Source of the DNA: an uncultured Clostridium sp. | GTDB taxonomy: Bacteria; Bacillota; Clostridia; Clostridiales; Clostridiaceae | NCBI GenBank assembly: GCA_902785295.1 | Contig: CACZYK010000001.1 | Location: 1 to 64,000, forward strand | Length of the DNA stretch: 64,000 nt | Direction: 5' to 3' | Shown here: positions 16,504 to 39,104 of the stretch, piece by piece | Position numbering within the stretch: position 1 is the stretch's first letter | Layout of the letters: the number at the start of each line of letters is the position of its first letter | The notes under the pieces: model-generated | What the model was told of the DNA's origin: nothing | Database searches by the model: none | The model's input: the letters and a program-made list of their open reading frames with translations, nothing else | Program-made: the position numbers and the translations under genes

Positions 16504-17583
16504 ATGAAAAATAATTTTTTTTATTCATTTCCAGCAATAAAAGGAATACAAGCAAAAAGAGAATTTTTTGTGATTATGTGTCCTTTATCAGTATTATCTA
16601 AATTATTTATATTTACTGATAATGAACTTCCTCCTGAATATAGAGCACAAAGAATTATAAATAAAACAAGAATTCCAGAAATGACATCATATATTGTTAA
16701 TAATCAAAATGATTATGTCTTTTCTTCTGTTACAGCATCTATTGATGGAGAATATGAATTTTTCCCAATTGATACTCATAAAGAAATGGGAACTCTTAAA
16801 GTTTCTATGGATAGCAGATTGTTAATTAATGACGGGCAACATCGAAGAGCTGCAATTGAAGAAGCTTTAAAATCTTGTCCTGAATTAAGTAATGAAACAA
16901 TATCTGTTGTTTTATTTATAGATGAAGGATTAAAAAGAAGTCAACAAATTTTTGCTGATTTAAATAAACATGCTGTTAATGTTTCTAAATCAATAGGTGT
17001 TCTTTATGATTCAAGAGATCCTATTGCTATAATTACAAAGGCATTATTAGAAGAAAATGTTTATCTTAAGAATTTTACTGATAAAGAAAATCCTTCCTTA
17101 TCAAAATTCTCTCCGAAATTGTTCACTTTAAGTTCTATAAATGAAACAAATAAACGACTTCTTAATAAAATAAATTCAAAAGATGAACAAATTAAATTTG
17201 TAAAAGAATTTTGGAATATACTATGTGAAAATATGATTGAATGGAAATCAGTTTTTAATAAAGAGTTACCTTCTTCTCTTTTTAGAGATAGTTATATTAG
17301 TGCTAATGGAGTTGTTCTGGAAGCTTTAGGCATTGTAGGAAATTATATTTATATTAATAATAATAAAAACTGGAAAGCTATTCTTGCAAATGTGAAAACT
17401 ATTGATTGGAATCGTTCCAATTTATCCGATTGGAAAAATAGAGCTATTGGAAATAATGGGCGTATTGTAAAAAGTGCAACTTACATAAAACTTACAAGTA
17501 ACAAAATTAAAATGTTATTACATATAAAACTTAGTAAAGATGATGCAAAAATAGAAGCAAATATGACAGAAAAGGATGTTTAG
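16504..17583 (+). CDS. dndB: DndB, phosphorothioate operon regulator
   Basis: This 359-residue protein carries the DndB/DGQHR-family signature INDGQHRRAAIEEAL at about residues 108-122. The downstream pattern FADLNKHAVNVSKSIGVLYD (about 151-170) is also typical. DndB is not required for sulfur insertion; in studied hosts it represses dnd transcription and modulates which sites are modified. The gene has GGGAG upstream and starts the plus-strand dnd operon. It is followed after 2 bp by dndC. A palindrome near the promoter (16468-16477) is a possible binding site. Length and motifs are normal for the family. Confidence 0.92.
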   Translation: MKNNFFYSFPAIKGIQAKREFFVIMCPLSVLSKLFIFTDNELPPEYRAQRIINKTRIPEMTSYIVNNQNDYVFSSVTASIDGEYEFFPIDTHKEMGTLKVSMDSRLLINDGQHRRAAIEEALKSCPELSNETISVVLFIDEGLKRSQQIFADLNKHAVNVSKSIGVLYDSRDPIAIITKALLEENVYLKNFTDKENPSLSKFSPKLFTLSSINETNKRLLNKINSKDEQIKFVKEFWNILCENMIEWKSVFNKELPSSLFRDSYISANGVVLEALGIVGNYIYINNNKNWKAILANVKTIDWNRSNLSDWKNRAIGNNGRIVKSATYIKLTSNKIKMLLHIKLSKDDAKIEANMTEKDV

Positions 17584-17585
17584 TA

Positions 17586-19196
17586 ATGAATTTAGATTTA
17601 AAAGAAAAAATTAATGCTATATTAAATGAAATGAAAATGGTATATCTAAATGATAATAGACCATGGGTTATTGGCTATAGTGGTGGTAAAGATAGCTCTA
17701 CTGTCGTTCAACTTGCTTTTACTATGCTTCAAAACCTAAAGCCAGAAGAAAGACATAAAGATATTTATATTGTTTCTTCAGATACACTAATTGAAAACCC
17801 TATTGTTTTAGCTTATTTAAAAGATAATTCTGCAAAAATAGCTAGAGGGGCTAAAGAACAAGGGTTGCCTTTATATTGTAACATGGTTCATCCTGATTAT
17901 AATGATACATATTGGACTAATATCATAGGTAAAGGTTTGCCTACTCCTACCTCTATTAGGTTTAGATGGTGTACTGAAAGACTTAAAATAAAACCTTCTA
18001 ATAAATTTATAGAAGAAAAAGTAAAAGAAAATGGTGAGGTTGTTATTTTATTAGGAGTAAGAAAAGCTGAAAGTGCTGCAAGAAAAGCTCGTATTTCTAA
18101 ACGAGAAATTGAAGGATATTTGTTAACACCTCATGTAACTTTAGCGAACACATATGTTTATAATCCTATAGTTAACTTAACTACTGATGAAGTATGGGAT
18201 GTTCTTTTATCTGATAATGGTAATACTCCATGGGGAACAAGTAATAGGGATTTATTTGACTTATATATGGGGGCTGATAGTGGTGAATGCCCTTTTACAA
18301 CAACAAATGATAAAAATACTCCAAGTTGTGGTAATTCTAGATTTGGTTGTTGGATTTGCACTGTAGTTGCAGAAGATAAATCATTAACTGGTTTTATAGC
18401 TAATGGTGAAGATTGGTTAAATCCACTTCTTGATTTTAGAAAATGGTTATTATCAATTAGAAATAAACATGAGTATAGAATGCAATATAGAAGAGATGGA
18501 AATCATTATTATAAAAAAGCTTATATAGATAAGTTACCTTTAAGTGAAAATTATTATATTGATGAAGATCATATTTTTGAAGAAAATAATCAATTTTATA
18601 TAGATTTAAAAAGAAGTCATTCAAAAGAAAATAATGGTGAAGTAATATATTCTAGTGAACAGGATAAAATTTATTTAGATCTTCTTCCTATAATTAATGA
18701 TACTCAAATAAATCCTGAAAAGATTTTATCTGATGAAAAAGGACAATATGTTAATGTTTTAGGATATGGACCTTTTAATTTTCATGCTAGAAAAGAAATT
18801 CTTCGCAAGCTCTTAGAGGTTCAAAAATTAATTAATGAAGAAGTTGAAGATGATATTAAATTAATAACAATTGAAGAATTAGAAATGATAGATAAAATTT
18901 GGGATGATGAAGAAGACTTAAGTCATAGAGAATTAGTAAATTTATATCATGAGGTAACTGGTGAAAAACTTCCTTGGGATGATTATAAAAAACCAGTATT
19001 TGACACTACTGCTCTTAAAATAATTTCTGAATTAAGTAAAAAACATAATATATCAGAAGATTTAATAAATAAACTACTTATTGAAACTAATAAAAATAAA
19101 TATTACACAAATAAAAGTATTCTTGACAAATCAATAAGTAAAATTTTAAATCAAAGGCATTTACACAAAAGTTTAGTTGAGGAGATTTCAAAATGA
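17586..19196 (+). CDS. dndC: DndC, PAPS-reductase-like sulfur transferase
   Basis: This 536-residue protein belongs to the phosphoadenosine phosphosulfate reductase/ATP-pyrophosphatase superfamily. The PP-loop SGGKDSS is at residues 32-38. Four cysteines able to hold the Fe-S cluster are C235, C248, C255 and C258 (ECPFTT, SCGN, CWIC). DndC is thought to activate the DNA backbone with ATP and pass sulfur from the cysteine desulfurase to make phosphorothioate linkages. It sits between dndB and dndD, overlapping dndD by 4 bp (ATGA). The long C-terminal extension after residue 300 is normal in DndC. Nothing looks broken. Confidence 0.95.
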   Translation: MNLDLKEKINAILNEMKMVYLNDNRPWVIGYSGGKDSSTVVQLAFTMLQNLKPEERHKDIYIVSSDTLIENPIVLAYLKDNSAKIARGAKEQGLPLYCNMVHPDYNDTYWTNIIGKGLPTPTSIRFRWCTERLKIKPSNKFIEEKVKENGEVVILLGVRKAESAARKARISKREIEGYLLTPHVTLANTYVYNPIVNLTTDEVWDVLLSDNGNTPWGTSNRDLFDLYMGADSGECPFTTTNDKNTPSCGNSRFGCWICTVVAEDKSLTGFIANGEDWLNPLLDFRKWLLSIRNKHEYRMQYRRDGNHYYKKAYIDKLPLSENYYIDEDHIFEENNQFYIDLKRSHSKENNGEVIYSSEQDKIYLDLLPIINDTQINPEKILSDEKGQYVNVLGYGPFNFHARKEILRKLLEVQKLINEEVEDDIKLITIEELEMIDKIWDDEEDLSHRELVNLYHEVTGEKLPWDDYKKPVFDTTALKIISELSKKHNISEDLINKLLIETNKNKYYTNKSILDKSISKILNQRHLHKSLVEEISK

Positions 19197-21352
19197 TAAT
19201 TAACAGCATAACATTAAAAAATTTTAGATCATATGAAGATGAAACAACATTCATTTTTTCCCCTAATGATGATAAAAATATTATTTTAATAGGTGGAGAA
19301 AATGGAGCTGGTAAGTCTACTCTATTTGAAGCTATTAAACTTTGTATGTATGGTCCGACAAACTATGGATATATAGGATATAATCATAACTATCTTACTA
19401 AAATAAAAAATAATATTAATGATAATGCTTTTAAAAATGAAGATGTTAATGCATTTATATCTCTTGATATTACTTTTAAAGACAAAACTCTTTTAAAAAG
19501 ATATACTTTAAAACGTTCTTGGTCTTATAATAACCAAAAACTAAGTGAAGATTTTATAGTTTATCTTGATGGAAATGAATTAAATGCTGAAGATAGATTA
19601 TATTTTGACAAATATTTGCGTTCAGTATTACCTCCATCATTATTTAATTTTTTCTTTTTTGATGGAGAGGAATTAAGTGATTTTTTCACTTCATCTTCAT
19701 CAAATTTAAGTTTAAAAGATTCTATACTACAACTTTTTAATTATGATACATTTGACATTTTAAAGAAGCAATTAACTTCTTATCAAAGAAGTCAATCAAA
19801 ATCAGATGATAAATTAAAAGAAATTCAAACTAATTATGATAATATTTTGTTAATAGTATCAGTATTAGAAAAAGACATAGAGATTCTTAATTCTTCTATA
19901 ATTAATTATGAAGAGGAACTTGATAATTTAAAAATTAAGAAATCAAAAATTGAAGAAGATTTTAAAAATAGTGGTGGATTACTTGAAGAAGAAAAAAAGA
20001 AACTAAATAATACTATTATGGCTTTAGAAAATGAACGAATTAACATAAACCAAAATATTAAAGATTCTTGTAATGATATTGTTCCATTTTTATTAATACC
20101 TGATTTATTAACTTCAATTAAAAATCAAATTAAAAATGAAGAACTACTAAATTCCTACTTATCTATTAATGACAAACTAACAGGAGACCTTATTAAAGAA
20201 TCTATTGCAAATTATATAGAATTAAATGAAAACGACAATGTATTTAATAATATTGCTAATTCTATTATTTGTAATATGTTTGATATTAAAAAAATTGAAA
20301 ACACTACAAGTATTTTAGAATTATCCTCAGAAGATAAAAATAATGTTATTTTTAAAATTAATAGTATTTTAGATAAGAAAGATAATTTAAAAACTTCTAT
20401 TATTAATAAATTTAACAGAATTCATGAAATAAATAATGAAATCAAAAATTTAAGAAAAAAATTAAACTCTTCTGTTTCAGAAGATCTTCTTAAAAATTAT
20501 ATTGAGTCAATGCATTTAGTTGTTAATGAAATTAATAACACCGAAATAAAACTTTCTCAATGTAGAAGTAAACTTGAGACAAAAATACAAGACCTAAATA
20601 ATAAAGAATATCATCTAAATAAAGCTAAAAATGAATATCTATCTTTACTTCAGGATAATAATGTTCTTGAAATATCTACTAATATCATTGATTATTTGAA
20701 TGAGCTATTATCTATATTAACTAAAGATAAAATCAATTTGATTGAAAAAAACTTTTTAAATATATTTAGTGCAATTATAAGAAAAGAAAATTATGTTAAC
20801 AATATTTCAATAGATAAAAATTTTAATTCAACTTTATATATTAATAAAGATTATACTGTATATGAAATACTTAATATTATTAATAACATTGGATTTGATG
20901 AACTTTCTAAAAAATATGGCTCCAAATTTATAGATGACCTTTATACGATTTATAATATTTCTAATAATGATGACTTATTAATTGAACTTAATAATGATAT
21001 TGCTTTAAATGTATTAAAATTAAGTACAAAAGTAAATATTAATGACTTTTCTAATGGAGAAAAACAAGTTTACATTTTATGTTTAATTTGGGCTATTATA
21101 AAAAGTTCTGGGGTGGAAATTCCATTTATTATTGATACTCCATATGCTCGTATTGACGAAAACCATAGAAATTCATTAACTAATATTTACTTGCCTAATA
21201 TAAGTAAACAAGTAATTATTTTATCTACTAACAAAGAAATAGATAGCAACTTATATAAAACAATTAAACCTCATGTATGTAATGAATATCTACTTCTTTA
21301 TAATACTAAAGATAGAAAAACAGAGGTTAAAAAAGGATATTTTGAGGTGTAA
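19193..21352 (+). CDS. dndD: DndD, SMC-like ATPase
   Basis: This 719-residue ABC-type ATPase is related to SMC/Rad50. Walker A is GGENGAGKST (residues 34-43). Two long coiled-coil stretches occupy about 195-290 and 395-490. The signature region FSNGEKQVYI lies near 620, and Walker B is IPFIIDTPYARID near 645. DndD is required for DNA phosphorothioation and is thought to couple ATP hydrolysis to opening or nicking DNA for sulfur insertion. The gene overlaps dndC by 4 bp and is followed after 2 bp by dndE. Family length and motif order are normal. Confidence 0.95.
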   Translation: MIINSITLKNFRSYEDETTFIFSPNDDKNIILIGGENGAGKSTLFEAIKLCMYGPTNYGYIGYNHNYLTKIKNNINDNAFKNEDVNAFISLDITFKDKTLLKRYTLKRSWSYNNQKLSEDFIVYLDGNELNAEDRLYFDKYLRSVLPPSLFNFFFFDGEELSDFFTSSSSNLSLKDSILQLFNYDTFDILKKQLTSYQRSQSKSDDKLKEIQTNYDNILLIVSVLEKDIEILNSSIINYEEELDNLKIKKSKIEEDFKNSGGLLEEEKKKLNNTIMALENERININQNIKDSCNDIVPFLLIPDLLTSIKNQIKNEELLNSYLSINDKLTGDLIKESIANYIELNENDNVFNNIANSIICNMFDIKKIENTTSILELSSEDKNNVIFKINSILDKKDNLKTSIINKFNRIHEINNEIKNLRKKLNSSVSEDLLKNYIESMHLVVNEINNTEIKLSQCRSKLETKIQDLNNKEYHLNKAKNEYLSLLQDNNVLEISTNIIDYLNELLSILTKDKINLIEKNFLNIFSAIIRKENYVNNISIDKNFNSTLYINKDYTVYEILNIINNIGFDELSKKYGSKFIDDLYTIYNISNNDDLLIELNNDIALNVLKLSTKVNINDFSNGEKQVYILCLIWAIIKSSGVEIPFIIDTPYARIDENHRNSLTNIYLPNISKQVIILSTNKEIDSNLYKTIKPHVCNEYLLLYNTKDRKTEVKKGYFEV

Positions 21353-21354
21353 TT

Positions 21355-21744
21355 ATGGGATTTAGATTAAAAACATCAAAAAGAACTAAAGAAATATTTG
21401 AAGAACTAGGAGAAAGCACTAATCTTAAACCTTTTGCCTTAAGTAAAATAGCTGTAAGTATGTCTTTAAATGATAATGTATCTATAGATGAGTATAAAAA
21501 TGATGACACCAATGGCTTAGAACTTCAAAGGTCTACTGTTACTGGTGAATATGATGCACTATTTAAGGCTTTAATAGAAATAAAATTAGGAAGACATATA
21601 AATGATGATGAATACTATCCATATTATATGAAGTTACATATTGATAAAGGAGCAGAATTACTTTATAACAAATATAGATATTCTGGAGGTAATCTAGAAA
21701 AATTCTTGAAACAAATACTGGTAAAGGAGGATAATATTTTATGA
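21355..21744 (+). CDS. dndE: DndE, small DNA-binding sulfur-modification protein
   Basis: This 129-residue basic protein matches DndE in size, position and pattern (FRLKTSKRTKEIFEELGESTNLKPFALSKIAVSMSL at the N-terminus). Structural work on a relative showed a helical tetramer that binds nicked DNA. It is the fourth modification gene and overlaps dndA by 4 bp. Start: ATG at 21355, two bases after the dndD stop. Its ribosome binding site lies inside the dndD end (GAGGTG). Confidence 0.9.
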   Translation: MGFRLKTSKRTKEIFEELGESTNLKPFALSKIAVSMSLNDNVSIDEYKNDDTNGLELQRSTVTGEYDALFKALIEIKLGRHINDDEYYPYYMKLHIDKGAELLYNKYRYSGGNLEKFLKQILVKEDNIL

Positions 21745-22928
21745 TTTATTTAGATAATAATGCCACTACTCCCATTGACCCTGAAGTGCTAGAAGCAATG
21801 TTACCTTATTTAAAAGAAGAATATGGAAATCCTTCTAGTAGATACTATACTTTAGCAATAAATGCAGATAAAGCTGTTGAAAAAGCTAGAGAACAAGTAG
21901 CTAATTTAATTAATGCTGAACCTAAAGAAATTGTATTTACTGCTGGTGCATCAGAAAGTAATAATTTCATAATTAAAGGTGTTTCTGATTATATGAAAAA
22001 CTATGAAGAAAAAGGAAATCATATAATTACTTCTACTGTTGAACATAAATCAGTTCTTCAAACTTGCAAATTTCTTAATGGTGATGTTTTTTGGAACAAA
22101 TCTGAAAAATCAGTTGCAAGTAAATTTATAAAGAAAAAAGGAACTAAAAAAATTGAGCGTGGATATGAAGTGTCTTTTTTGCCAGTAAACCAATATGCTC
22201 AAGTAAACAGTGATGATTTTAAAACTTCAATAAAATCAAATACTATTCTCGCTTCTTTTATGTGGGGTAATAATGAAATAGGCTCCCTTAATAATATTAA
22301 AGAACTATGCTCAATAGCAAAAGATTCTAATATATTATTTCATTCAGATGCCACTCAAGTTTTAGGGAAAATAGATATAGATGTAAAGAAAATATCTGTT
22401 GATTTTTTATCCATGTCTGCCCATAAAATATATGGTCCTAAAGGAGTGGGTGCTGCTTTTATAAGACAAAATGGTATATCTGATTTTAAAATAACCTCTT
22501 TAATACATGGTGGATTACAAGAAAGAGGCTATAGAGCTGGTACTTCTGCTGTACATAATATAGTTGGATTTGGTAAAGCTTGTGAAATAGCTAAAAGAGA
22601 TATGAATAAATATATAAAAAAACTAACAAAATTAGAAATAGAAGCTAAAAAAGCTCTTAAAGAAAAATATCCAGATATACAATTTTTAGGCGACCCTGAA
22701 AATCATATACCTGGAGTTATTGGAATGATTATTCCTGAAATAATTAATGAAATGTTTATTAAAGATTTATCTGATAAAGTTGCTCTTTCTTCTGGCTCTG
22801 CTTGTGGTATTATTGAACCATCCTATGTAATTTATGAGATTAATTTACAAGATAAATCTAGTAATTTTTTAAGATTAAGTTTTAATAAGTATTCAGAAGC
22901 TTCTTCTATAAATGATATTATTATATAA
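21741..22928 (+). CDS. dndA: DndA, cysteine desulfurase
   Basis: This 395-residue NifS/IscS-type PLP enzyme provides sulfur from cysteine. The PLP lysine is K229 in SMSAHKIYGPKG, and the persulfide-forming cysteine is C355 in SSGSACG. The GGLQERGYRAGT segment is typical. A short insertion around residues 117-142 (rich in K and S) separates it from the housekeeping IscS pattern. It ends the dnd operon; a strong hairpin follows directly. Here dndA is last, giving the order B-C-D-E-A, whereas in several well-studied clusters dndA is divergent or missing and replaced by iscS. Confidence 0.93.
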   Translation: MIYLDNNATTPIDPEVLEAMLPYLKEEYGNPSSRYYTLAINADKAVEKAREQVANLINAEPKEIVFTAGASESNNFIIKGVSDYMKNYEEKGNHIITSTVEHKSVLQTCKFLNGDVFWNKSEKSVASKFIKKKGTKKIERGYEVSFLPVNQYAQVNSDDFKTSIKSNTILASFMWGNNEIGSLNNIKELCSIAKDSNILFHSDATQVLGKIDIDVKKISVDFLSMSAHKIYGPKGVGAAFIRQNGISDFKITSLIHGGLQERGYRAGTSAVHNIVGFGKACEIAKRDMNKYIKKLTKLEIEAKKALKEKYPDIQFLGDPENHIPGVIGMIIPEIINEMFIKDLSDKVALSSGSACGIIEPSYVIYEINLQDKSSNFLRLSFNKYSEASSINDIII

Positions 22929-22963
22929 ATGGTAAAGGATGATTTATACCATCCTTTACCATT
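22928..22963. terminator. Bidirectional terminator between convergent operons
   Basis: A perfect 14-bp stem (AATGGTAAAGGATG at 22928-22941 and CATCCTTTACCATT at 22950-22963) with an 8-base loop lies right after dndA. It sits between the plus-strand dnd operon and the convergent minus-strand helicase operon, so it can end transcripts from both sides. Confidence 0.85.
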
Positions 22964-23023
22964 TTGCTAGTTTCCAAAAAGCCTTATCATCCTTATAAAT
23001 TAATTTGTAAAATTTTATATATA

Positions 23024-23680
23024 TTAGTTTTTAATGCTTAACATTATATTTCCTAATAAATCTTCCTTTTGAATCCATTCAATTATTGTATCAGACAGAT
23101 CTAATAAAGTTGCCTCCTTGTTCTTTACTTTCTTTAAAAAAGTAACTATTTTATCATCATCAAATTTCATTCTTGATAAAATCTCATTAGCTTTTCTAAT
23201 TTCAAGATCGTACTCTTCAATAATTGTTTCATTTAAAGGCCATTTTGAAAAATTATTCATACTTATCAAGATTTTTTGAATTTCTTTCTTATCATTACTT
23301 ATTAACTTTAATATACCTAATTCTTCTTTAATGTTAGCTAAAAACTGTTCTGTCTGATTTGTCCATTCATTTTTAATCTTTTCACTTAATTTTTTTATAC
23401 CATCTCGATATTTTATTGGATTGTTAACTTCTCTTTTTTCAAATATATTTTTTGAATATTTAACATATTCTTTTATTTCATCATGAATATTATTAGAAAA
23501 TGAAATATGATCATATTTTTTACATAAAATATAACTTTTTATTGTCGGAACAAAATATTCATTATATGCATCAAAAAATGTGTTATTTTGTCGTGCTATA
23601 TTTTGATTTTTTACATCTTTTTGCTTGTTTTCAGATACTTCGCACATCAAAGCTATACACTTATTTAATTTTTCTCTCAT
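23024..23680 (-). CDS. Unknown 218-residue helical protein, last gene of the helicase operon
   Basis: I do not recognise this protein. It appears almost wholly alpha-helical and charged, with coiled-coil-like stretches (about residues 80-135 and 160-205). There is no visible catalytic motif or membrane segment. It lies one base downstream of the large P-loop ATPase gene and completes the seven-gene minus-strand operon. In that position it may be a structural subunit or adaptor of the ATPase. Start: ATG at 23680, after a GGAGG just inside the upstream gene's end. Confidence 0.6.
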   Translation of the reverse strand: MREKLNKCIALMCEVSENKQKDVKNQNIARQNNTFFDAYNEYFVPTIKSYILCKKYDHISFSNNIHDEIKEYVKYSKNIFEKREVNNPIKYRDGIKKLSEKIKNEWTNQTEQFLANIKEELGILKLISNDKKEIQKILISMNNFSKWPLNETIIEEYDLEIRKANEILSRMKFDDDKIVTFLKKVKNKEATLLDLSDTIIEWIQKEDLLGNIMLSIKN

Positions 23681-26813: not shown

Positions 26814-27622
26814 CTTCTTTTTACTCCTCTATATATTATATGTGTAAACTTTTCTGTAAACTCATGTGTTTCATCCTTAAATAAATTCCAAGTTTCTTTA
26901 CTATCCAAATTTTTCTTAATAGTAATTTCATTTTTATCATGCATTTGTCTAAGGGCAATTGACATAGCTAGATTAAAAGTTTTACTATCTCTTGTTTCTT
27001 TTAATGCAACCGAAGCAAAACTATATATTTCATCTAAAAATTCTTTAACAGAATATTCTTTATTTTTTTCTAAATTTGACAATTCACAGAAATCTTGTAA
27101 TGCTACATGCATATTAGGCAAATAATACATAGCATTACCTTCTTGAATATATCCAAAACCCAAAAATGAAATCCAAAAGCGCATACCCAAAATCATTTGT
27201 TCATTTACTAATAAAATTTTAGACTTATCTTGTATTTCTCGCCTTATATTTACATCAGTCAAAGTTTTATACTTCAACCACTCATCATTTGATTCTAAAT
27301 AACAATTAGCAATTTTATAAAAGTATGTATCTGTATTATTAAATACAATTGAATTACAATATTTGCGGAAGGAATTCATATCTTTTAATATCTTTTTATC
27401 TCCAATAAATTTCAAAATATCATTTTCTTTAGATATAAGTTGTAATTCTTTAACACAAACATCTCTTATGCTCGAATAATATGTAGAACTAGATGGATTA
27501 ATCTCTGTTGGTTCCATTCTCTCTTTTGCTAACTTATCATTTAAATCCTCTTTTGATACCATTTGACAAAGTTCAAATACCCTCTCTGGTATAGGTTCAG
27601 TCTTTATATTATTATCAAACAT
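26810..27622 (-). CDS. 270-residue protein, DpdG-like by position
   Basis: The function is unknown. The protein begins KTEPIPERVFELCQMVSKEDLNDKLAKERMEP, which looks like a small winged-helix or helical N-terminal domain. Its helical body contains LRQMHDKNEITIKKNLDSKETWNLF near the C-terminus, a possible second winged helix. It lies between the RecQ-like helicase (27 bp away) and the large ATPase (4-bp overlap). DpdG proteins have similar size and position, but I rely on context and length only. It might recognise modified or unmodified DNA for the complex; that is inference. Confidence 0.55.
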   Translation of the reverse strand: MFDNNIKTEPIPERVFELCQMVSKEDLNDKLAKERMEPTEINPSSSTYYSSIRDVCVKELQLISKENDILKFIGDKKILKDMNSFRKYCNSIVFNNTDTYFYKIANCYLESNDEWLKYKTLTDVNIRREIQDKSKILLVNEQMILGMRFWISFLGFGYIQEGNAMYYLPNMHVALQDFCELSNLEKNKEYSVKEFLDEIYSFASVALKETRDSKTFNLAMSIALRQMHDKNEITIKKNLDSKETWNLFKDETHEFTEKFTHIIYRGVKRR

Positions 27623-30082: not shown

Positions 30083-33000
30083 CTATCATCCTCACATAAC
30101 AAACTGAATCTAATATCATTCTTGGAGTAGAAAAACATTGTAAGAGCAAATCGTTAACATCTTCATTTACTACCTTTTCTCCGGTTAAATAAAATTTACC
30201 TATTGCTTTTTGTGCTCCACTATTTTTTAATAACTCCACCTTCAATAAACTTAATTGTTTTTTTAATTTTTTATTAATCTTTACTTTTACTTTTTCTAAC
30301 GCTCTCTGGTATCCATACTCAACTTCTTGTATCCACTTTTCTTGTGGATACATATTTATAAACGAATTTATATTTGGATGCAAACCAGATCTCGAACCTA
30401 AATGTTTAAACTTTTTTCTGTCAACATTCTCTGAGGTCATTAAATAATTAAATGTATTTATTACCTCTTCTTCAGAAACATTATCATTATTAGAAATAGA
30501 AATTGCACATTGAAGTTGCTCAATTTGCATAAATCCACGATATTTGTCTATAGTATGTAATGATAATCCTTTTTCTAACAATAATGTTTCATTTGGATAT
30601 AAAGCCCATGTAAACACAAAGCCTGTCCAGTCTATGTTGGCCTTACAAGCGAAAGCTGCACAAGTTCCCTTATATGAACCTAATGCATTGTTAACAATAC
30701 TATCAAAAATTGCATCTCCTGGTGCAAAAAAATGAATATAATCATTATCAATACCTATCTTCCTATCAAATGTTCCCTCAACATAATTTAAATCATATTT
30801 TGATATTTTTTCATCATTCATACAACGCATCTTATTTTGTAATTGATTTATTTTATTATTAATCACTAAATTTATATCTGGTGGTACAAATAATGAATTG
30901 TATGCCGATTTTAATGAAAAAGAGTTTTCATCAAACCTTATAATTGATTTTTCTTCACTTTTTCCATGAAAGCCAGATAATGCTGACCATCGCATCATAG
31001 AATCTGCAAATAATTGTTTTTCATTTGAAACATACATTTCTCTTGTATTATCCATAATCTTATTTATTGCTTGATATTTATATTCTGCAACATCAAAATA
31101 TCTTTCGCGAGTAATTATCTGTTTCAACTCACCTATTTCTTTTTTCACTTCATTTATTATACCAATTAGTCCATACTTAAAGTCATTACAAACTGCTTTA
31201 ATTATTTTTTCGTCCATATCATTCATGATAATTTCAAGCCCACTTTGAGATTTCGTAAATATTCCTATACCTTCATTCCAGAATTTGAACAAATCTTCTT
31301 CAATAGATAATTTTGCATAACAAACTACTGAAATAACTGGTTTATTTTTTTCTCTACCAATACGATCTAATCTACCTATCCTCTGTTCAATTTCATTGGC
31401 ATTCCACGGAATATCAATATGAACAACAACATCAGCATTTTGAAAATTTCTTCCTTCACCTCCTGATTCATCAGATAATAATATCCAATAATTGCTGTCT
31501 GTTTCAAATCTATATGCCCCTAATTCTCTTTCATCAGATTCCATATATTTTGAGAAAAATGCACAGTGTTCTTTTCCAAAATATCTTTCAAATACATCTT
31601 TATATAACAAAAATGATTCATCAAAATTAGTAAAAACTAATACTTTTTTTCCATATAATTCTTGATCAATATAATCAATAATATTATTCATTCTTGATTC
31701 ATAACCTTCAGGATCTTCCATAAAAGTATGCATTTTTAGAATATTTTCCTTTTCTTCATTTTTCCAATTAGTAGAAAGTTCAAATAATTCTTCAGGCGCA
31801 TCATCTATAAATCCATTATTTAATATTGTATCAAATGCTACTGCAGAACTAAAAAATGCTGAAACTAATCTTTTATATTTTATCAAATATGTACTATAGT
31901 CGAGATTTTTATTTTCTATCCAACTAGCCAATTCTCTATAGACATTGTACTCTGTATTATTAAAATTAGTCTGCATATCATATGAAATTTCTTTTATTTC
32001 TCGAATATTATAGTCTTCTTCTTTTTCACAACCACGTCTATTTCTGATAATGGATTTTTCAAATTGATAGTTCTCACACACATAGGCTAAAGCACCTTGT
32101 ATTTTCTCAATACCAAAATCTTCAGATTCATAATTTATATTTTCGTATAAATCTTTAAAAATATTATCATTAATAAGTTTTTGAATTTTTTCTAAACTAT
32201 CAATTATATCTTCAAAAGCATCCTTTGTATCTTCACTATGTTCATTTTCACTTTCATCAATTTCTTCTAAATATGAATCAAAATTTTCTAGTGCATCATG
32301 TACCCTTCTAACAATATCTCCTTGTAAATTCATCAAAAATTCAAATTTTTCATCTGATATTCTAGTGTATTTCATGGGTTGAATAAGTTGTAACAGTTTT
32401 TTATATTCATCTTTTCTTCTTTGAATAGGTGTTGCACTAAGCATAAGAATATTATCAGTTTTTTTACTTAATTCCAATAATAATTTATATTTTTCATTAT
32501 CTTGTAAATATTTATGTACTTCATCAGCAATCAAAAAATCGTAATGTCCTTCAAGAAAATATTCATTAAATTTATTCATACTAATCAAGCATATCTTATT
32601 TCCATTAACATCTAATCCTTCAAAAATTTTAAATTTATATGCAAGTTCTATTCTCCATTGTTCCACTAAGGAATCTGGCACAATTATTATTATATTTGAA
32701 TTATGATTATCCTTTAAATAAACTTTTAAGACTGCTGAAGCTTCTATCGTTTTCCCCATTCCAACTTCATCGGCAATCATATTTCTACATATGCCATCTT
32801 GAAGACATCTAATTATTGTTCTTAACTGATGTGTTTTTAAATATATTTTACATCCTGCAACTTCACTAAATCCATAAAGTGAGTTATTAATAATATGCAT
32901 TGTTCTACTTACAATGCTTCTACCAAAAAACCACATAGGATTCTGAAATTCATAATTTTTTAATTGTTCTAATGGGCATACACATCCATCATTATATGAA

Positions 33001-33347
33001 CACTCTAACATTGATTCAGATACATATTCAATTAAATCTTCATCGGATTGTATGTAATAGTAATACATTCCATTTTCTTTATTTAATTTAAGTGCTTTTA
33101 CAATATATCTTGTTTTTTTATATTTAACAATAGCACCAATACGAATCTTAATATGCGATATTTTATTAACATTATACTTTTTATTTTTCGGCTTTGGATA
33201 AAACTTTCCTACTCCATTAACATCAAAAAATATAATATCAACTAACTCTGAAAATTCATCTATTTCTTTTATTTTTCCAATTGCATAATCACGTGAAAAT
33301 TTTTCATCATCTATTGCACATCGCACAAACATACCATTTTTTATCAA
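30072..33347 (-). CDS. SNF2-type helicase, DpdE-like
   Basis: This 1091-residue SNF2-family ATPase starts with strand-rich modules (about residues 1-115, with IGAIVKYKKTRYIVK). Walker A is ADEVGMGKTI (192-201), motif II reads ADEVHKYLQD (DEVH instead of DEAH), motif III is LSATPIQRR, and the C-terminal half has QRIGRLDRIGR near 655. The protein has an acidic linker near 370-390. It is followed by the RecQ-like gene (11-bp overlap) and preceded by the AddB-like gene (2-bp gap). It is of the same broad class as the SNF2 protein at 9778-12918, but the two differ in their flanking domains. DpdE of the deazaguanine systems is the best parallel I know. Confidence 0.8.
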   Translation of the reverse strand: MIKNGMFVRCAIDDEKFSRDYAIGKIKEIDEFSELVDIIFFDVNGVGKFYPKPKNKKYNVNKISHIKIRIGAIVKYKKTRYIVKALKLNKENGMYYYYIQSDEDLIEYVSESMLECSYNDGCVCPLEQLKNYEFQNPMWFFGRSIVSRTMHIINNSLYGFSEVAGCKIYLKTHQLRTIIRCLQDGICRNMIADEVGMGKTIEASAVLKVYLKDNHNSNIIIIVPDSLVEQWRIELAYKFKIFEGLDVNGNKICLISMNKFNEYFLEGHYDFLIADEVHKYLQDNEKYKLLLELSKKTDNILMLSATPIQRRKDEYKKLLQLIQPMKYTRISDEKFEFLMNLQGDIVRRVHDALENFDSYLEEIDESENEHSEDTKDAFEDIIDSLEKIQKLINDNIFKDLYENINYESEDFGIEKIQGALAYVCENYQFEKSIIRNRRGCEKEEDYNIREIKEISYDMQTNFNNTEYNVYRELASWIENKNLDYSTYLIKYKRLVSAFFSSAVAFDTILNNGFIDDAPEELFELSTNWKNEEKENILKMHTFMEDPEGYESRMNNIIDYIDQELYGKKVLVFTNFDESFLLYKDVFERYFGKEHCAFFSKYMESDERELGAYRFETDSNYWILLSDESGGEGRNFQNADVVVHIDIPWNANEIEQRIGRLDRIGREKNKPVISVVCYAKLSIEEDLFKFWNEGIGIFTKSQSGLEIIMNDMDEKIIKAVCNDFKYGLIGIINEVKKEIGELKQIITRERYFDVAEYKYQAINKIMDNTREMYVSNEKQLFADSMMRWSALSGFHGKSEEKSIIRFDENSFSLKSAYNSLFVPPDINLVINNKINQLQNKMRCMNDEKISKYDLNYVEGTFDRKIGIDNDYIHFFAPGDAIFDSIVNNALGSYKGTCAAFACKANIDWTGFVFTWALYPNETLLLEKGLSLHTIDKYRGFMQIEQLQCAISISNNDNVSEEEVINTFNYLMTSENVDRKKFKHLGSRSGLHPNINSFINMYPQEKWIQEVEYGYQRALEKVKVKINKKLKKQLSLLKVELLKNSGAQKAIGKFYLTGEKVVNEDVNDLLLQCFSTPRMILDSVCYVRMIDGL

Positions 33348-33349
33348 AA

Positions 33350-35986
33350 TTAATCATCCCCTATGTTAGCACCATACTCAAGACAAATATCCTTACTTGC
33401 ACAATACATACAATGCTTTCCATGAATACAGTAAAACTTTTTATCAATAATTGCTTTTTTTAATTCTTCATCACTAACTTCTTCCATAATGTTTTTTAAA
33501 GGAGTATTTAAAAAACATTCCCTTAATCTCATTTCTTCTTTCATATCAACTGATATACTTGGAAAGAGATTTTTATTTTTACTATATTTTTTCATACGTT
33601 GAATAAAACTACATATATCTTTATAAACTGATGAAATAATCTGTGTTTTTTCCAATTCATCAGAAATACGAAATTGTGTTTCAATAATTTCATACTGCTC
33701 TTGTATTACCTTTTTTATTATTTCATCACTATATGATTTGCCATCAAGTTCTTTTTTGCTCCTATTAGTAGTAAGGATTTTTAAATATGTATGAATTAAA
33801 AATCTGTCTCTAAATACTGTTTTTCCTTGCCCTATTCCCTCTAGTGCAAATCTATATGGGCATAACTTCAATTTTTTCCTATCTTCTTCTGAAATATACT
33901 TAATCACTTCATCTATCTCTTTCTCATTAGATTCAACAACTAAATTTTCCAAGTAATTATTTGTATTAAATGAAGAGTATTTTCTAACTTTTGCTCCAAG
34001 TAGAGTAAACATATAGAACAAATCATTATCCTTATTATCTTCTCTTCTAACATAACTCAATTTACATCTTACTCTATTAAACTCTAGTCCATAAAGTAGT
34101 GCATATCTTTTAAAATTTCGATACTCCATTTTTGATTTTAAAAAAACTTGATACTTCCATTCCAATGCTTGATAACTATATTCAAAAAACTTAATATCTA
34201 AAGGCCATGGAAGCCTTTCATCTTTACTAGAGCAAATATCTTTATCGCTCAAGCAACAAAAATGATAGCAAACCTTTTTTGGATCCTGTTTTGCACTTCT
34301 AAGAATATCCCCATCAATCTGGTCAAAATTTTTCACAATCCAATGAGCACCTCTTACAGTATTTTCATCTTGACTTAAGTAATAACTCATTGTCTGCTTT
34401 AGAGCATTAAATGTTCCTGTTTCAGGAATATCCGATTCTTCTAATCTCTCAAGTAATCTACGAATCACACTATGCATTTCATCATCTAAATCATTCAAAT
34501 CACTAACTTTTGAAATAATAAATTTTCTAATTCTTTTATAGAACCTTCTGAAATTATCTGTACCATTATCAAAATCATCGAAGAAAGATTTAACAATTTT
34601 TTCAAGTTCATTTAGAGCATTCTTCAATTCCAAAAGTAACTCTTTATCTACCATAAAATATCCAACTTTCTCTTTATCATTATGCTTTTTATTTGAATTT
34701 TTTATTAATTGATTTAATTTCGCAATAATTCCCAATATTGTATTTTCTTTTTTTACATATGGCTCAATCATATTGAATGTACTAACCAGCTGACCAGGAA
34801 TATTTTCAGAAATTATGCCAGAATTTAAGCATTCTTTTATATCTGAAAAATTGTCAACTTTCACACACCTTTTCTCAGAATCCCACATATTTGTAGTGGA
34901 TATAAAAAAATGACCAATTGGATAATCCAAGAAATGTCTTTCTTCAAATTGTTCTGGAAAATATGCCCTCAATATATCATTAACTTTTCCTGATGCTGAG
35001 TATAATTGTTCTTCCATAAAAAAAAGTGGTGTTTTTACATTATCATTTTTTTCACTAGCACTCTTAGCTTTATCAAATAACATTGCTACATAATTTGCAA
35101 ATTCAGTTGTATTATTGAATTCGATAATTTCTAAATCATTCAATACTTTATTCTTTTCTATGAACTCACCATTTGATAAATGACCTATATAATCAGCTAG
35201 TACATTAGACTTATATGAGTTTATGAGTAATGGCATTGGTACAAATTGATTTATGCTATAATTATTAATTGGCACATCAAATATTGAATAAATATTCATC
35301 CATGTCTCATAAACAACTGAATACTGATTCTGATAATTAAACAAAAGAACTATATCTTTAAATTTACTAATATCTTCAATGGCACACAATATCGCAGGCG
35401 TGAATTGATGTATTCCATGAATTACAATCTGATTTCTGTTTATTGCATTTAAATCAACATCTTTTTTATGAAACATCAATGCATTATCAATAGATTGTTC
35501 CACTACTTCCTTAGAATTTACTCTTTCAAAAGAAAATGTAGAGTTTACATTTGAATCAATAATTTTGTACAAATCCACAAGATATTGTTGAGAAATATTT
35601 AATTCTTTTTTACTCATCAACTTAGAGTTTATACCTAATTCTTTAAACATTCTAATACATGCAACAATAGATTTTGTGTTAAACAATAAAGAACGTTTTA
35701 CATTTTCCAAAATATTAGTTTCAAAATTTAATTCGTTTATTGCGTTATCCACTTCCATAATTTGTCGTACATTTGTATTTATATCTTCCCAGTTTTTATA
35801 CATGCAATTTACAAGTGTCTTTACTGTTGCTGTTGCTTGTCTTTTTTTCAATAAAGGATATATTTGATTCATACCATTTACCATAGTCTGAGAAACACAG
35901 AAATGAGCACTATCTTTTATTTCATTCCAAAAAGGCTCACAATCTATTTCATATGGATTTGAATATGTATATATTTTAATTCCCAT
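33350..35986 (-). CDS. AddB/RexB-like Fe-S protein without visible nuclease core
   Basis: This protein of about 878 residues resembles the inactive-helicase subunit AddB. Segments such as IVIHGIHQFTPAILCAIED (about 205-225) echo the AddB helicase-like core, but no Walker A is visible. Near residue 708 is LCPYRFALEG. At the C-terminus C853, C859, C862 and C868 (FYCIHGKHCMYCASKDIC) give the C-x2-C-x5-C pattern of the AddB/Cas4 4Fe-4S nuclease fold. I do not see the catalytic GxxD...ExK motif between them. I chose the ATG at 35986, with GGAGG eight bases upstream. The NERD-UvrD gene ends 2 bp before it, so the two likely form an AddAB-like pair. Confidence 0.7.
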   Translation of the reverse strand: MGIKIYTYSNPYEIDCEPFWNEIKDSAHFCVSQTMVNGMNQIYPLLKKRQATATVKTLVNCMYKNWEDINTNVRQIMEVDNAINELNFETNILENVKRSLLFNTKSIVACIRMFKELGINSKLMSKKELNISQQYLVDLYKIIDSNVNSTFSFERVNSKEVVEQSIDNALMFHKKDVDLNAINRNQIVIHGIHQFTPAILCAIEDISKFKDIVLLFNYQNQYSVVYETWMNIYSIFDVPINNYSINQFVPMPLLINSYKSNVLADYIGHLSNGEFIEKNKVLNDLEIIEFNNTTEFANYVAMLFDKAKSASEKNDNVKTPLFFMEEQLYSASGKVNDILRAYFPEQFEERHFLDYPIGHFFISTTNMWDSEKRCVKVDNFSDIKECLNSGIISENIPGQLVSTFNMIEPYVKKENTILGIIAKLNQLIKNSNKKHNDKEKVGYFMVDKELLLELKNALNELEKIVKSFFDDFDNGTDNFRRFYKRIRKFIISKVSDLNDLDDEMHSVIRRLLERLEESDIPETGTFNALKQTMSYYLSQDENTVRGAHWIVKNFDQIDGDILRSAKQDPKKVCYHFCCLSDKDICSSKDERLPWPLDIKFFEYSYQALEWKYQVFLKSKMEYRNFKRYALLYGLEFNRVRCKLSYVRREDNKDNDLFYMFTLLGAKVRKYSSFNTNNYLENLVVESNEKEIDEVIKYISEEDRKKLKLCPYRFALEGIGQGKTVFRDRFLIHTYLKILTTNRSKKELDGKSYSDEIIKKVIQEQYEIIETQFRISDELEKTQIISSVYKDICSFIQRMKKYSKNKNLFPSISVDMKEEMRLRECFLNTPLKNIMEEVSDEELKKAIIDKKFYCIHGKHCMYCASKDICLEYGANIGDD

Positions 35987-35987
35987 A

Positions 35988-38900
35988 CTATATTTCCTCC
36001 AATAATTTTCCCCACGTATTTCCATTAGAATCTGTTTTATTAAACCAGTAAAACTTATTTATTGTCCTAGTTAATGCCACATATAATATACGTGCTTCTT
36101 CCATCTCAATCTCACCTAATTCATCATCCTCATAGAAATATTCATTTGCCATAAATTCTCCATCAACACTAACACAATATCCAACTTTTCCATCAACATA
36201 TGTCACATCCAAACCATTTCTATGCATCATATCAATCTTGTCAGTAGTTATAGGCATAATAACCATATCATACTCCAAACCCTTTGACTTATGAACAGTG
36301 GTACATACTATGCGTACATAATCACCACCATCTGTTACAGATCTTGAATTTCTTTCTGAGCCCATATTAATCAAGATATTTAATGACTCATTAATTGAAT
36401 CCAATGTCAAATAACTATATTTGCTTTCTTTTGATAAATCTTCAAATACTAAATCATAATTTGTTCGATAATGTATTTGCTTTGCTTCATCCATAGAATA
36501 TGTTTTCCATGGCTTAGTTGCATCATAAATTTTTCGCAACACCATCAATACTGGTTTACTTTGTATTTCATAAACCAATTCACTCCAATTTACTCCTAGT
36601 GTTTTTTGATAAAATTTATCTAAACATCCAATAAGATAATTCATCTTTTCCTGCTCTGTCATTTTTACCAACTTTTCCACAGGAAACTTTATATTTACAT
36701 TATTTGATAAAAGTAAATTAAATAAATATACTGGATTTCTTGAATTTGATAAGGCAGATGTTAACTTACATAAATCTATACTTGATTGAAGTCTATATAA
36801 ATCTCCATTTGAATCACTCTCAATTATAATATCATTCTGTTCTTTAGCTTTTCTAAGAATAGTAGCTATCTGATAATTTGTTCTTACAAGAACTGCAACA
36901 GTTTTTTCAGCCTGCGATAATTTTGAAAAATCACTCCTTGCTTCTATTTCAGTTTTTCTATTCTTTATCACTTCAAATAATTTTTTATATATACCATCAT
37001 CTTTTTCGTCTTCTTTTGTATAAGAAAACACATTTACTAATTCATTTTTATCCAAAAGTAAGTTTTCATTAACTCCAATCAATCTATCTGATGGTTCTTT
37101 ATAAGGAATAAGATTCTTATTTCCCATTGAGTTAAATAACACTGCAAAATCTTCTAACAATCTCTTATCAGTTCTATAATTAATATTTAAAGTATATTCT
37201 TTCCATGTTTCTGCCTGACATCCCATCTTTTTAAATGAGTCCATAGTTGCTCCTCTAAATCTATAAATACTTTGTTTTAAATCTCCAACTATAAAAAAAT
37301 TAAACCCTAATTTCTTTTGCATTTCTAAAAATGCAGATATCTGTGAATCATCAACATCCTGAAATTCATCAATGAATATATATTTGTATTGATACAAATT
37401 AGTGTTAAATGACTCATCACTTACACATTTATTTAAGTAAAGCATATATTCCACAAGACTAACTGAATTATTCTCATATAAATAATCTGAATACGCTCTC
37501 TCAGTCTTTATAATGACCTCTTCAATAATCTCATTCATGTATGGCATTTGACTTGCTGGTGCTCCAAATACATTCTCTGTGGTCTCTTTTATGTCATATC
37601 CTTTATTATATAACATATCTGCAAATTTCAATAATAGTTTTCTAAAGTCATATATGTTTCCCGGTATGTTTCCAAAGAACATAGGCTCTTCATTATTTTT
37701 CTTTTGCAAATACTCATTAAAGTACATATCAAAGATTTTCTGCTTTTGATAATTTCCACTTACTGTTGAAAAATCAACACCTATTCCTAAAGATAATGAT
37801 GTATCTTTCATTACTAAATTTGAAAAACTATGAATGGTTGATATTCGCATATTTTCTATTTCAGCAATCATTTCAAGATACTTTTTATTTCGTGTAAGAA
37901 TAAAATAATTCATAAATGCTTGCTTTAACCTACTTTTCATATTGGTAGCAGCTTCAGTCGTAAATGTTAACATTGCAATTTCATTTTTCACATCCAATAT
38001 ATTTGACTTACTTGACTTATGACAAATAAAAGAAATTCTTGAAATCATAGAATATGTTTTTCCAGTGCCTGCACCTGCTTTAACAACAATATTTTTATCA
38101 ATAGGAGCATGTTCTACCATATACTGTTGCAAATTAAACTTTGATTTTTTTGCTATAAACTCCACTATTTCTAGTGTTTTTTTATCTAATACTCCATTCT
38201 TAATAATCCTATTTTCACTTACAAAATCACTTAATTCTTCAATAAAGTATGCCTCAAAATTAAAAAATTCAATATATCCATCTTTGCTCTTCAATGTATT
38301 TTTTTGTTGTGAGTTGAGAATAAAATTTCTGCCTTTCAGAAAAATTCCTTCAGCGTTAAACTTTTTTAATATATTTTGAGAAATCTGTTCCACTTCATCT
38401 TTATTACTCAAAAATATGGTCTGCTTTACTCCTTTAAAATAATAATTTACTATTTCATCTATATCTGAAATGGTAATATCATGTACATATATCCTTAATT
38501 CAGAATAAGGCAAAACATCATTATTTTCTTCCTCAATATAATTATTTGCCTCAAAATGCAACCTACACGTTTTATATATATTTCCAACCATTTTGTCATA
38601 AATAGGCTGATTTGTTTTTTGATATACTCTGGCTATTTTCTTCACAAATTTTGTTGGATTTTCAATGTCTTCTTGAAACAAAGTAAATTCTGGTTCTGAA
38701 ACAATATTTAGTCCTCTATTATTATATTCATATTCTGACATAAATGGATAACACACCATATCCATTACAAATGGATTTATACTATATTTATTGTTATATA
38801 TATTAACAAGAGCAAACCTGTAACTTCTTGCTTGTTTCTTGGGTGAACTAACTGGTTCCGAATAAAGTGTTGTTTGAATTGTATCAGGATTATTTACTTT

Positions 38901-39104
38901 TATAATATCCAATGCCTTCCATCCTTTTACTTCTATTATAAGTATTCCTATATGTTCCATAATCAAACAAAAGTCAAACTGCTTACCATTTACTTCCCTA
39001 TTGTAATAACATATTATATCATCAGGTAAATTTGACTCTATACACTCATAAACTTTCATTTCACCCTTATAAGTCGCATCCTTTTTATCCATCATTTTTG
39101 CCAT
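35988..39104 (-). CDS. NERD-UvrD helicase, AddA-like, first gene of the seven-gene operon
   Basis: This protein of about 1038 residues starts with a NERD nuclease-related domain (residues 12-65; D44 in KQFDF, E58-V-K60 in IIEVKGW). A UvrD/Rep helicase follows: Walker A VVKAGAGTGKTYS near 345-357, YIFIDEFQDVDDSQ near 620, VGDLKQSIYRFRGA near 648, TTVHKSKGLEYDMV near 935 and LYVALTRT near 1008. The combination implies a DNA translocase with a possible nuclease head. I prefer the ATG at 39104, where GAGGTAATGGTC gives proper spacing; an ATG at 39110 is possible. It is paired with the AddB-like protein. Upstream are 360 bases with no clear promoter. Confidence 0.85.
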   Translation of the reverse strand: MAKMMDKKDATYKGEMKVYECIESNLPDDIICYYNREVNGKQFDFCLIMEHIGILIIEVKGWKALDIIKVNNPDTIQTTLYSEPVSSPKKQARSYRFALVNIYNNKYSINPFVMDMVCYPFMSEYEYNNRGLNIVSEPEFTLFQEDIENPTKFVKKIARVYQKTNQPIYDKMVGNIYKTCRLHFEANNYIEEENNDVLPYSELRIYVHDITISDIDEIVNYYFKGVKQTIFLSNKDEVEQISQNILKKFNAEGIFLKGRNFILNSQQKNTLKSKDGYIEFFNFEAYFIEELSDFVSENRIIKNGVLDKKTLEIVEFIAKKSKFNLQQYMVEHAPIDKNIVVKAGAGTGKTYSMISRISFICHKSSKSNILDVKNEIAMLTFTTEAATNMKSRLKQAFMNYFILTRNKKYLEMIAEIENMRISTIHSFSNLVMKDTSLSLGIGVDFSTVSGNYQKQKIFDMYFNEYLQKKNNEEPMFFGNIPGNIYDFRKLLLKFADMLYNKGYDIKETTENVFGAPASQMPYMNEIIEEVIIKTERAYSDYLYENNSVSLVEYMLYLNKCVSDESFNTNLYQYKYIFIDEFQDVDDSQISAFLEMQKKLGFNFFIVGDLKQSIYRFRGATMDSFKKMGCQAETWKEYTLNINYRTDKRLLEDFAVLFNSMGNKNLIPYKEPSDRLIGVNENLLLDKNELVNVFSYTKEDEKDDGIYKKLFEVIKNRKTEIEARSDFSKLSQAEKTVAVLVRTNYQIATILRKAKEQNDIIIESDSNGDLYRLQSSIDLCKLTSALSNSRNPVYLFNLLLSNNVNIKFPVEKLVKMTEQEKMNYLIGCLDKFYQKTLGVNWSELVYEIQSKPVLMVLRKIYDATKPWKTYSMDEAKQIHYRTNYDLVFEDLSKESKYSYLTLDSINESLNILINMGSERNSRSVTDGGDYVRIVCTTVHKSKGLEYDMVIMPITTDKIDMMHRNGLDVTYVDGKVGYCVSVDGEFMANEYFYEDDELGEIEMEEARILYVALTRTINKFYWFNKTDSNGNTWGKLLEEI

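Follow-up and report, generated by a model that had tools for sequence, protein, structure and literature searches.

The Window and Its Two Convergent Operons

We analyzed a stretch of 64,000 nucleotides from an uncultured Clostridium sp. (contig CACZYK010000001.1 of assembly GCA_902785295.1, positions 1 to 64,000), hereafter called the window, in which an operon for the phosphorothioate (PT) modification of DNA faces a set of helicase and ATPase genes. The dndB-C-D-E-A operon (plus strand, 16504-22928) is convergent with a tight operon of seven genes on the minus strand (39110 to 23024), which encodes, from 5' to 3', a NERD-UvrD protein, a protein of 891 amino acids (aa), homologs of DpdE, DpdF, DpdG, and DpdH, and a protein in the position of DpdI (Table 1). 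We refer to the two operons as the Dnd arm and the seven-gene arm. Their layout and a hairpin with a 15-bp stem bear out the original prediction, made from the sequence alone, of two operons converging over a common terminator.

Table 1. Positions of the genes and of the hairpin of the locus, with the matches that support their assignment.
Feature	Position in the window	Strand	Evidence and remarks
HNH endonuclease (393 aa)	15109..16290	-	Divergent from dndB; companion of the Dnd arm
dndB, ParB-like regulator	16504..17583	+	TIGR03233 465 bits, cut-off 328
dndC, PP-loop sulfurtransferase	17586..19196	+	TIGR03183 458 bits, cut-off 290
dndD, ABC ATPase	19193..21352	+	TIGR03185 391 bits, cut-off 246; Walker A GENGAGKS
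dndE	21355..21744	+	Pfam DndE 2.9e-23, 82.7 bits, cut-off 25; below NCBIfam cut-off
dndA-type cysteine desulfurase	21741..22928	+	TIGR03235 8e-117, below cut-off
Hairpin common to both convergent operons	22927..22964	.	15-bp perfect stem, z -6.5
DpdI-position protein (218 aa)	23024..23680	-	phmmer 4e-13 to Paenibacillus Dpd counterpart
DpdH-like P-loop ATPase (1043 aa)	23682..26813	-	NF041065 8.1e-87, 293 bits, cut-off 450; GSSGSGKS at 77
DpdG-like protein (270 aa)	26810..27622	-	NF041064 2.4e-4, 20.6 bits, cut-off 80
DpdF-like RecQ-family helicase (810 aa)	27650..30082	-	NF041063 2.2e-130, 437 bits, cut-off 550
DpdE-like SNF2 helicase (1091 aa)	30072..33347	-	NF041062 1.8e-96, 324 bits, cut-off 500
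AddB-fold protein (891 aa)	33350..36025	-	Best model match AddB; four conserved cysteines; nuclease residues not conserved
NERD nuclease fused to UvrD/AddA-like helicase (1040 aa)	35988..39110	-	Pfam NERD 4.7e-9, UvrD 5.4e-37; PDB AddA 1.4e-15

The Dnd Modification Arm

The genes that define a Dnd modification system, i.e., dndB, C, D, and E together with a dndA-type desulfurase, are all present in one operon. DndC retains Cys129, 235, 248, 255, and 258 in all 46 aligned rows, with an SGGKDS motif at position 32 of the window protein, and the 35 aligned DndA rows all have Lys229 and Cys355; we presume catalytic or functional roles for these residues, as for the conserved residues of DpdE, DpdF, DpdH, and NERD described below. 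By its sequence motifs, the modification arm of the window looks functional.

Homologs of the HNH endonuclease were found in 18 of the 80 loci fetched in the survey described below (designated by L numbers), 17 of them directly 3' of dndA. The identity of this protein tracks that of the Dnd arm in two pairs (L053 and L042, 94% for HNH and 91-98% for the Dnd genes; window and L025, 34% and 30-45%), a third pair, L061/L037, being an exception (26% for HNH versus 69-89% for the Dnd genes).

A Dpd-Type Motor Core and an AddAB-Like Pair

Homologs of DpdE, DpdF, DpdG, and DpdH follow each other in this order in the seven-gene arm, as had been predicted, the match to DpdG being weak (Table 1). None of the four reaches the curated equivalog cut-off of NCBIfam, and they are thus diverged relatives of the Dpd proteins. 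The DpdE-like protein carries DEVGxGKT (193-200) and DEVH (275-278), with key residues conserved across 45 rows, the DpdF-like protein TGxGKS (176-181) and DEAH (280-283), conserved across 44 rows, and the catalytic residues of DpdH are conserved as well. In L042, the locus of the commensal Eubacterium ramulus ATCC 29099, dpdE is split over two frames. The 270-aa protein matches the DpdG-position protein of Paenibacillus (phmmer, 1e-14), with which its position agrees too, and the 218-aa protein matches its counterpart in G190, apparently the genome of Oceanirhabdus seepicola (8e-13), and could be aligned over 25 rows; the E-values for these two proteins, including that in Table 1, were each computed against the open reading frames of one locus. 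DpdI is the name that we assume for the gene position after DpdH, the Paenibacillus record reading hypothetical protein.

The first two genes of the operon encode an AddAB-like pair. D46, E59, and K61 of the NERD domain are found in all 11 domain-bearing rows of the 13 aligned, and the helicase part displays the Walker A, DEx, and later motifs of AddA in 13 of 13 rows. Its partner has the AddB fold and keeps C722, C872, C875, and C881 in all 23 rows, which we take to be the iron-sulfur (Fe-S) staple positions of AddB, while the aligned rows hold no invariant acid or lysine of a PD-(D/E)xK nuclease between the first and the second conserved cysteine. The AddB set of 45 rows contains five repeat contigs and excludes the split AddB of L033. 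That such a pair had been added to a Dpd-like module stands as far as homology goes, but the pair is itself exchangeable: in Catonella morbi (L046, with L196 upstream) genes for DrmA, a DrmB-like protein, and a NERD-helicase are found instead, followed by DpdE-I and dndB-C-D-E-A, so that this locus mixes genes of DISARM, Dpd, and Dnd systems, and in L084 NERD-UvrD/AddB likewise gives way to a DrmB-like/NERD-helicase pair. An AddAB-like pair also occurs on a Geobacillus plasmid with no Dnd or Dpd genes around it.

Accessory genes, none of them universal, lie near some of the loci and encode NADAR-domain proteins, Mrr-type nucleases, and methyltransferases. The NADAR gene directly follows dpdI in L019 and L020 and lies one gene farther in L024, and the Mrr-type nuclease gene is located between NERD-UvrD and dndA in L129, L130, L135, and L141.

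Linkage of DpdH Relatives to dnd Genes

A DpdH alignment of three sequences retrieved 174 relatives from genome contigs, the best 80 of which were retained; their loci were annotated by phmmer against the window proteins and the Dpd, DndFGH, and Drm references from fetched loci, and additional contig sequence was fetched where dnd genes were initially out of view. DndC or dndD lies on the same contig as DpdH in 44 of the 80 (33 within the locus, 11 farther along the contig). Eleven loci (L019-L022, L027, L032, L036, L064-L066, and L076) had at first been taken for possible other modification types, until dnd was found beyond their 10-kb flank. The other 36 comprise 15 Dpd-type loci, six alphaproteobacterial Dpd-like loci, three DrmA-linked loci without dnd, three AddB-type loci with dnd on another contig, one locus with dndA only (L047), and eight that were labelled unknown in the tree (five on short contigs and three cyanobacterial). 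The three contig-break loci were not counted as linked: in L045 the dnd contig begins with the dpdI gene, in L028 dnd lies on another contig, and in L024 a broken dndC does. The DpdI-sized gene remained unlabelled at an E-value of 1e-5 in several loci.

A quick, midpoint-rooted DpdH tree was built from 83 rows, i.e., 79 surveyed loci, the window, and three plasmid rows (L047, with DpdH pieces under 480 aa, was omitted; L079, L057, and L065 form long branches). One branch of 56 rows (SH-like approximate likelihood ratio test, SH-aLRT, 98), set beside the Dpd systems of Bacillota, unites the 44 dnd-linked loci, the window, the three contig-break, the five short-contig, and the three DrmA-linked loci, and none of the loci with a DpdA, J, or K label falls inside it. 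Dnd-linked rows, window, and contig-break rows occupy one side of a branch opposite the 24 Dpd or alphaproteobacterial rows. The original prediction had set such a survey as its refuting test, namely that the operon be common in the absence of dnd or in company with different modification genes; instead, 45 rows of the 56 are dnd-linked, eight end with their contig and cannot be judged, and three, all Selenomonadaceae, are without dnd.

Within the window's own family, Oceanirhabdus seepicola (L057) displays the same convergent layout, with an identity of 23-34% in the seven-gene arm. Near-identical DpdH sequences occur in Hornefia, Gastranaerophilales, and Faecalicoccus (L031, L054, L060), pointing either to a recent transfer across distant taxa or to a binning error in the metagenome-assembled genome (MAG) among them.

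Co-Occurrence of DpdH and DndC in Genomes

A second survey covered an even sample of 397 genomes from the Lachnospiraceae family of the L030 genome. DndC was over the cut-off in 20 of these and a strong DpdH (257-329 bits) was found in 11, nine of which are common to the first survey; a match of 20 bits in G774 was not counted, nor were five of 18-30 bits in the window's class. All 11 DpdH genomes lie among the 20 with DndC, with both genes on the same contig and within about 20 kb. When the genome on which the sample is centered is excluded, DpdH is present in 10 of 19 DndC genomes versus none of the 377 others (Fisher p 4e-15). In G838 and G906, which were absent from the first survey, dndC and DpdH are convergent.

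Full-length DndH was found in none of the 11 DpdH genomes versus four of the nine other DndC genomes (p 0.026). The 20 dndC genomes thus divide into 11 with DpdH beside dnd (the whole arm being seen in nine), four with DndH, and five with neither, so that much of the seemingly solitary dnd of this group would have a restriction partner.

Searches for Parts of Known Systems

The genome of the window is 96% complete and forms, with those of 45 relatives, a dnd-linked set of 46 genomes. DndH has no match in the window's genome, the genome-wide search having been made for DndH and not for DndF and DndG. In line with the original remark that no dpdA-type transglycosylase is visible, a query with one Paenibacillus DpdA found no match in the window's genome, which argues against a hidden DpdA, nor in 44 others of the set, while both positive controls were recovered (2/2). 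In the genome of L040, which carries a dnd-linked arm, it matched a fragment of DpdA interrupted by a stop (G633:C9:1969-2529). No gene of the dnd-linked loci was labelled dpdA, dpdB, que/preQ0, or DpdJ, K, or D, and DpdJ, DpdK, and DpdD were not the best match of any scanned window protein among the matches listed.

PbeABCD is not recovered among the window proteins, to which this comparison applies: DndD scores 409 bits to DndD versus 364 to PbeC, and the best PbeA match shown is the DpdF-like protein, with 40 bits versus 335 to DpdF. DrmA and DrmB are the best match of no protein of the window operons and are present only in the variant loci.

Arms Are Exchanged as Blocks

Over 45 rows, the dnd genes lie downstream and co-directional in 28, upstream and co-directional in nine, and convergent in eight. 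These three arrangements require at least seven changes on the tree, with the gene content kept, and 37 of the 45 rows are co-directional.

Between L053 and L055, the latter from the commensal Catenibacillus scindens DSM 106146, the Dnd genes are 91-98% identical and those of the seven-gene arm 25-45%, the comparison of NERD-UvrD being limited to 226 residues. The 92.4% DNA identity of these two loci starts at L053:13790, in the gap between dpdI (ending at 13749) and dndB (starting at 13847). A stretch of 37 bp in this gap (L053:13789-13825 and L055:13874-13910), matching on opposite strands as an inverted repeat, coincides with the point where identity switches, and is either a terminator hairpin or a recombination site. 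The window and L025 show the opposite pattern, with 62-85% in the arm and 30-45% in dnd, and the dndC, D, E, and A of the window are nearer to those of Oceanirhabdus (46-65%), to whose arm that of the window is 23-34% identical.

These patterns indicate that the seven genes act as one unit and the Dnd genes, often together with HNH, as another, and that both re-pair after exchange. Such re-pairing is the strongest case for a working link between them, against a mere hitch-hiking in defense islands. The company of divergent arms with near-identical Dnd genes, and of similar arms with divergent ones, also suggests that what the arm recognizes is the sulfur mark or the Dnd complex more than any particular site. 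L053 and L055, as a natural swap, offer a system in which to ask whether the engine reads a chemical mark or a site.

Neighboring Genes

The locus is part of a larger defense island. A gene of the prokaryotic Argonaute/PprPIWI type (PADLOC pAgo, 1061 bits) is located at 1952-4234 on the minus strand. A TmtA-like protein of 1491 aa is encoded beside a 1046-aa SNF2 helicase resembling DrmD (5319-12918, minus strand) and, with a WYL-type regulator (13140-14093), perhaps constitutes an additional, separate system. Upstream of the helicase operon lie a gene for a JukB-like protein (40062-41572, minus strand; PADLOC 7.8e-19) and an adjoining gene for a 196-aa protein with no PADLOC matches.

A Proposed Two-Armed Phosphorothioate System

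The locus is a real, conserved, and modular composite, and a variant of PT-based defense not described in the literature searched, whose mechanism we infer. We consider it likely that it constitutes a PT-based restriction-modification system whose two arms are interchangeable, the second being a Dpd-type motor core with a NERD head. Since the pairing recurs in many bacteria, it apparently represents a type of sulfur-based defense against phages that has yet to be described.

Building on the established homology, motifs, conserved co-occurrence, and block exchange of the arms, the following scheme can be proposed. DndA, C, D, and E, regulated by DndB and often accompanied by an HNH nuclease, would swap oxygen for sulfur at target sites in the host DNA. 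DpdE, DpdF, DpdG, DpdH, and the DpdI-position protein would scan and remodel DNA and check it for this mark, PT thus serving as a self mark that blocks rather than triggers action. On DNA without PT, this core would license or recruit the NERD-UvrD/AddB pair for unwinding and degradation; the NERD domain, N-terminal to UvrD and the one recognizable intact nuclease of the pair, would be the cutting head, and the AddB-fold partner, with no recognizable nuclease site, keeps its cysteine clamp.

Several findings weigh against this proposal. Full-length DndH is present in six of the 46 dnd-linked genomes (L057, L059, L062, L064, L066, and L067), two others giving weak and partial matches, and the seven-gene arm therefore need not be the restriction partner. 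DndFGH genes follow dpdI in L064 and L066, and dndFG follow dndA in L067. These carriers, four Bacilli, Oceanirhabdus, and Cellulosilyticum, correspond on the tree to a subclade (three Bacillaceae, Oceanirhabdus, and Cellulosilyticum) plus Brevibacillus, i.e., to two changes. The predicted replacement of DndFGH accordingly holds in the window's genome and in most of its relatives, but strict replacement is ruled out. In L057, L059, L062, L064, and L066, two extra genes (encoding about 195-216 and 294-380 aa) are inserted between AddB and DpdE; DndH is present in all five genomes of this subclade, and both extra genes tested gave no PADLOC match.

To this come loci in which the arm and dnd are found apart. 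In the Selenomonadaceae loci L048, L056, and L079, DpdE-H (in L056, which is cut, G-H) and a gene of DpdI size accompany DrmA-type genes; dnd is absent from these loci and a strong DndC from their genomes, which suggests that the arm is compatible with another mark or with none; a 1197-aa gene of L079 at first labelled DpdJ became DrmA once a DrmA reference was included. No strong DndC was found either in the genomes of L026, L029, L035, and L054 (no match or a weak one) or in that of L047, all of them titled MAGs or single short contigs, and L029 extends about 9 kb past dpdI without dnd; the short-contig genome of L023 gave a good DndC of 277 bits. Of the 24 genomes with Dpd-type or alphaproteobacterial loci, five also have DndC over the cut-off. 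Within the class to which the window belongs, where the DpdH and DndC searches each covered 391 genomes (apparently identical sets), a strong DpdH was found in one and DndC in four, three of the latter being without strong DpdH. Lastly, the assignments of the DpdG-like and DpdI-position proteins are weak by sequence, with position as part of their basis.

The main rival, which we hold to be unlikely, is a PT-activated defense in the manner of SspE or DndI, in which PT would switch the arm on and the arm would act on invading or replicating DNA, sulfur then giving license rather than shelter. PT-sensing defenses have been reported (PMC11662687, PMC9646914), and arms diverged to 25-45% beside near-identical Dnd genes would be expected if sulfur in general were sensed and not one site. 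Yet the closest relatives of the arm are Dpd systems, whose marks are described as linked to the exclusion of unmodified DNA (PMC11888242), and a nuclease-helicase turned against host DNA that bears PT would presumably harm its own cell unless controlled further.

Decidedly improbable, in our view, is that two separate and complementary defenses share an island, one being Dnd with or without DndFGH, and in the other the DpdE-I and AddAB-like helicases sensing foreign ends or replication structures and not PT. The DndH genes of six genomes, the three Selenomonadaceae loci without dnd, and the Geobacillus plasmid pair all fit such an arrangement. It is harder to reconcile with the family sample, in which 11 of 11 DpdH genomes carry DndC on the same contig and none carries DndH (four of nine other DndC genomes do), or with reshuffled arms that pair again with a Dnd arm, mostly co-directionally (37/45). 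That a DpdA from elsewhere in the genome would supply the true mark, 7-deazaguanine, with dnd as a bystander, has very little to commend it: on the DpdH tree the arm falls among Dpd systems and the L040 genome has a broken DpdA, but 45 of the 46 dnd-linked genomes yielded no DpdA (with one Bacillota-type query that found both controls), and their loci have no dpdA, dpdB, or que labels. Finally, chance neighborhood in the defense island of one genome, with its pAgo, TmtA, DrmD-like, WYL, and JukB-like genes, is refuted by the DpdH survey and the Lachnospiraceae sample, and has next to no credibility in view of the conserved linkage, block exchange, and co-occurrence.

Beyond the two-armed PT system, we lean slightly toward a broader proposal, in which DpdE-F-G-H-I would be a mark-independent restriction engine, combined with various self marks (7-deazaguanine by DpdA, phosphorothioate by Dnd) and various cutting heads (DpdJ/K/D, NERD-UvrD with AddB, or DrmA-DrmB with a NERD-helicase), the PT branch exchanging whole engines among its Dnd modules at a fixed point. 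If this holds true, Dnd, Dpd, and DISARM would belong to a single modular superfamily, and many supposedly solitary dnd clusters would gain a restriction partner. Our results suggest that the Dpd restriction arm is separable from its base modification; searches requiring dpdAB, as in PMC11888242, would miss an arm freed in this way.

Comparison With Known Systems

A 2025 review lists dndFGH (with sspFGH), sspE, and pbeABCD as the three branches of PT-based restriction (PMC12707154). Dpd systems are described as placing deazaguanine marks on host DNA and as carrying a restriction operon, dpdD-K, the marks reportedly accompanying the exclusion of unmodified DNA (PMC11888242). The survey of Dnd neighborhoods by Rakesh (2024, PMC10853773) names NERD and superfamily 2 (SF2) helicases, and its main text holds no word starting with Dpd; the accessible text of Jian (2021, PMC8569181) has no Dpd or helicase word. 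A 2026 BREX paper (PMC12839542) joins Dpd-type transglycosylase (TGT) parts with BREX, and in the portion of its text considered here Dpd is not joined with Dnd. The literature searched, which includes few subscription papers and also PMC11662687, PMC11931770, and PMC12904381 in part, contains no description of a Dnd arm combined with a Dpd-type arm.

PbeABCD with CxC-DndE is an alternative Dnd partner with an SF2 helicase-nuclease (Rakesh 2024, PMC10853773), from which the window differs in having only one DndD-type ATPase among its scanned proteins, a NERD and not an HKD nuclease, and a Dpd-type motor set. SspABCD with SspE or SspFGH and BREX type 4 are, as far as described, likewise PT-based defenses with an effector other than DndFGH. 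Unlike these, the window has no protein with a best PADLOC match to an Ssp or BREX component: the desulfurase scores 419 bits to SspA versus 426 to DndA, and the other cross-matches are weaker (SspD 44 versus DndC 500 bits; BrxH 118 versus DpdE 243 bits).

The NERD-UvrD protein resembles the helicases of AddAB/RecBCD and Gabija, being nearest to AddA (1.4e-15) and GajB (7e-14) in the PDB. AddA and AddB carry C-terminal nuclease domains, whereas the nuclease of the window is an N-terminal NERD and the nuclease residues of AddB are not conserved. A likeness to DISARM is found in the variants L046 and L084, with their DrmB-like and NERD-helicase genes and, in L046, DrmA upstream. With the Dnd systems that use DndFGH, the window shares the DndBCDE-A modification arm, but its restriction arm is unrelated. 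From Dpd systems it is set apart by its Dnd genes, NERD-UvrD, AddB-fold protein, and a genome with no dpdA match, and yet its seven-gene operon shares with them the core order E-F-G-H-I, encoded by homologous proteins.

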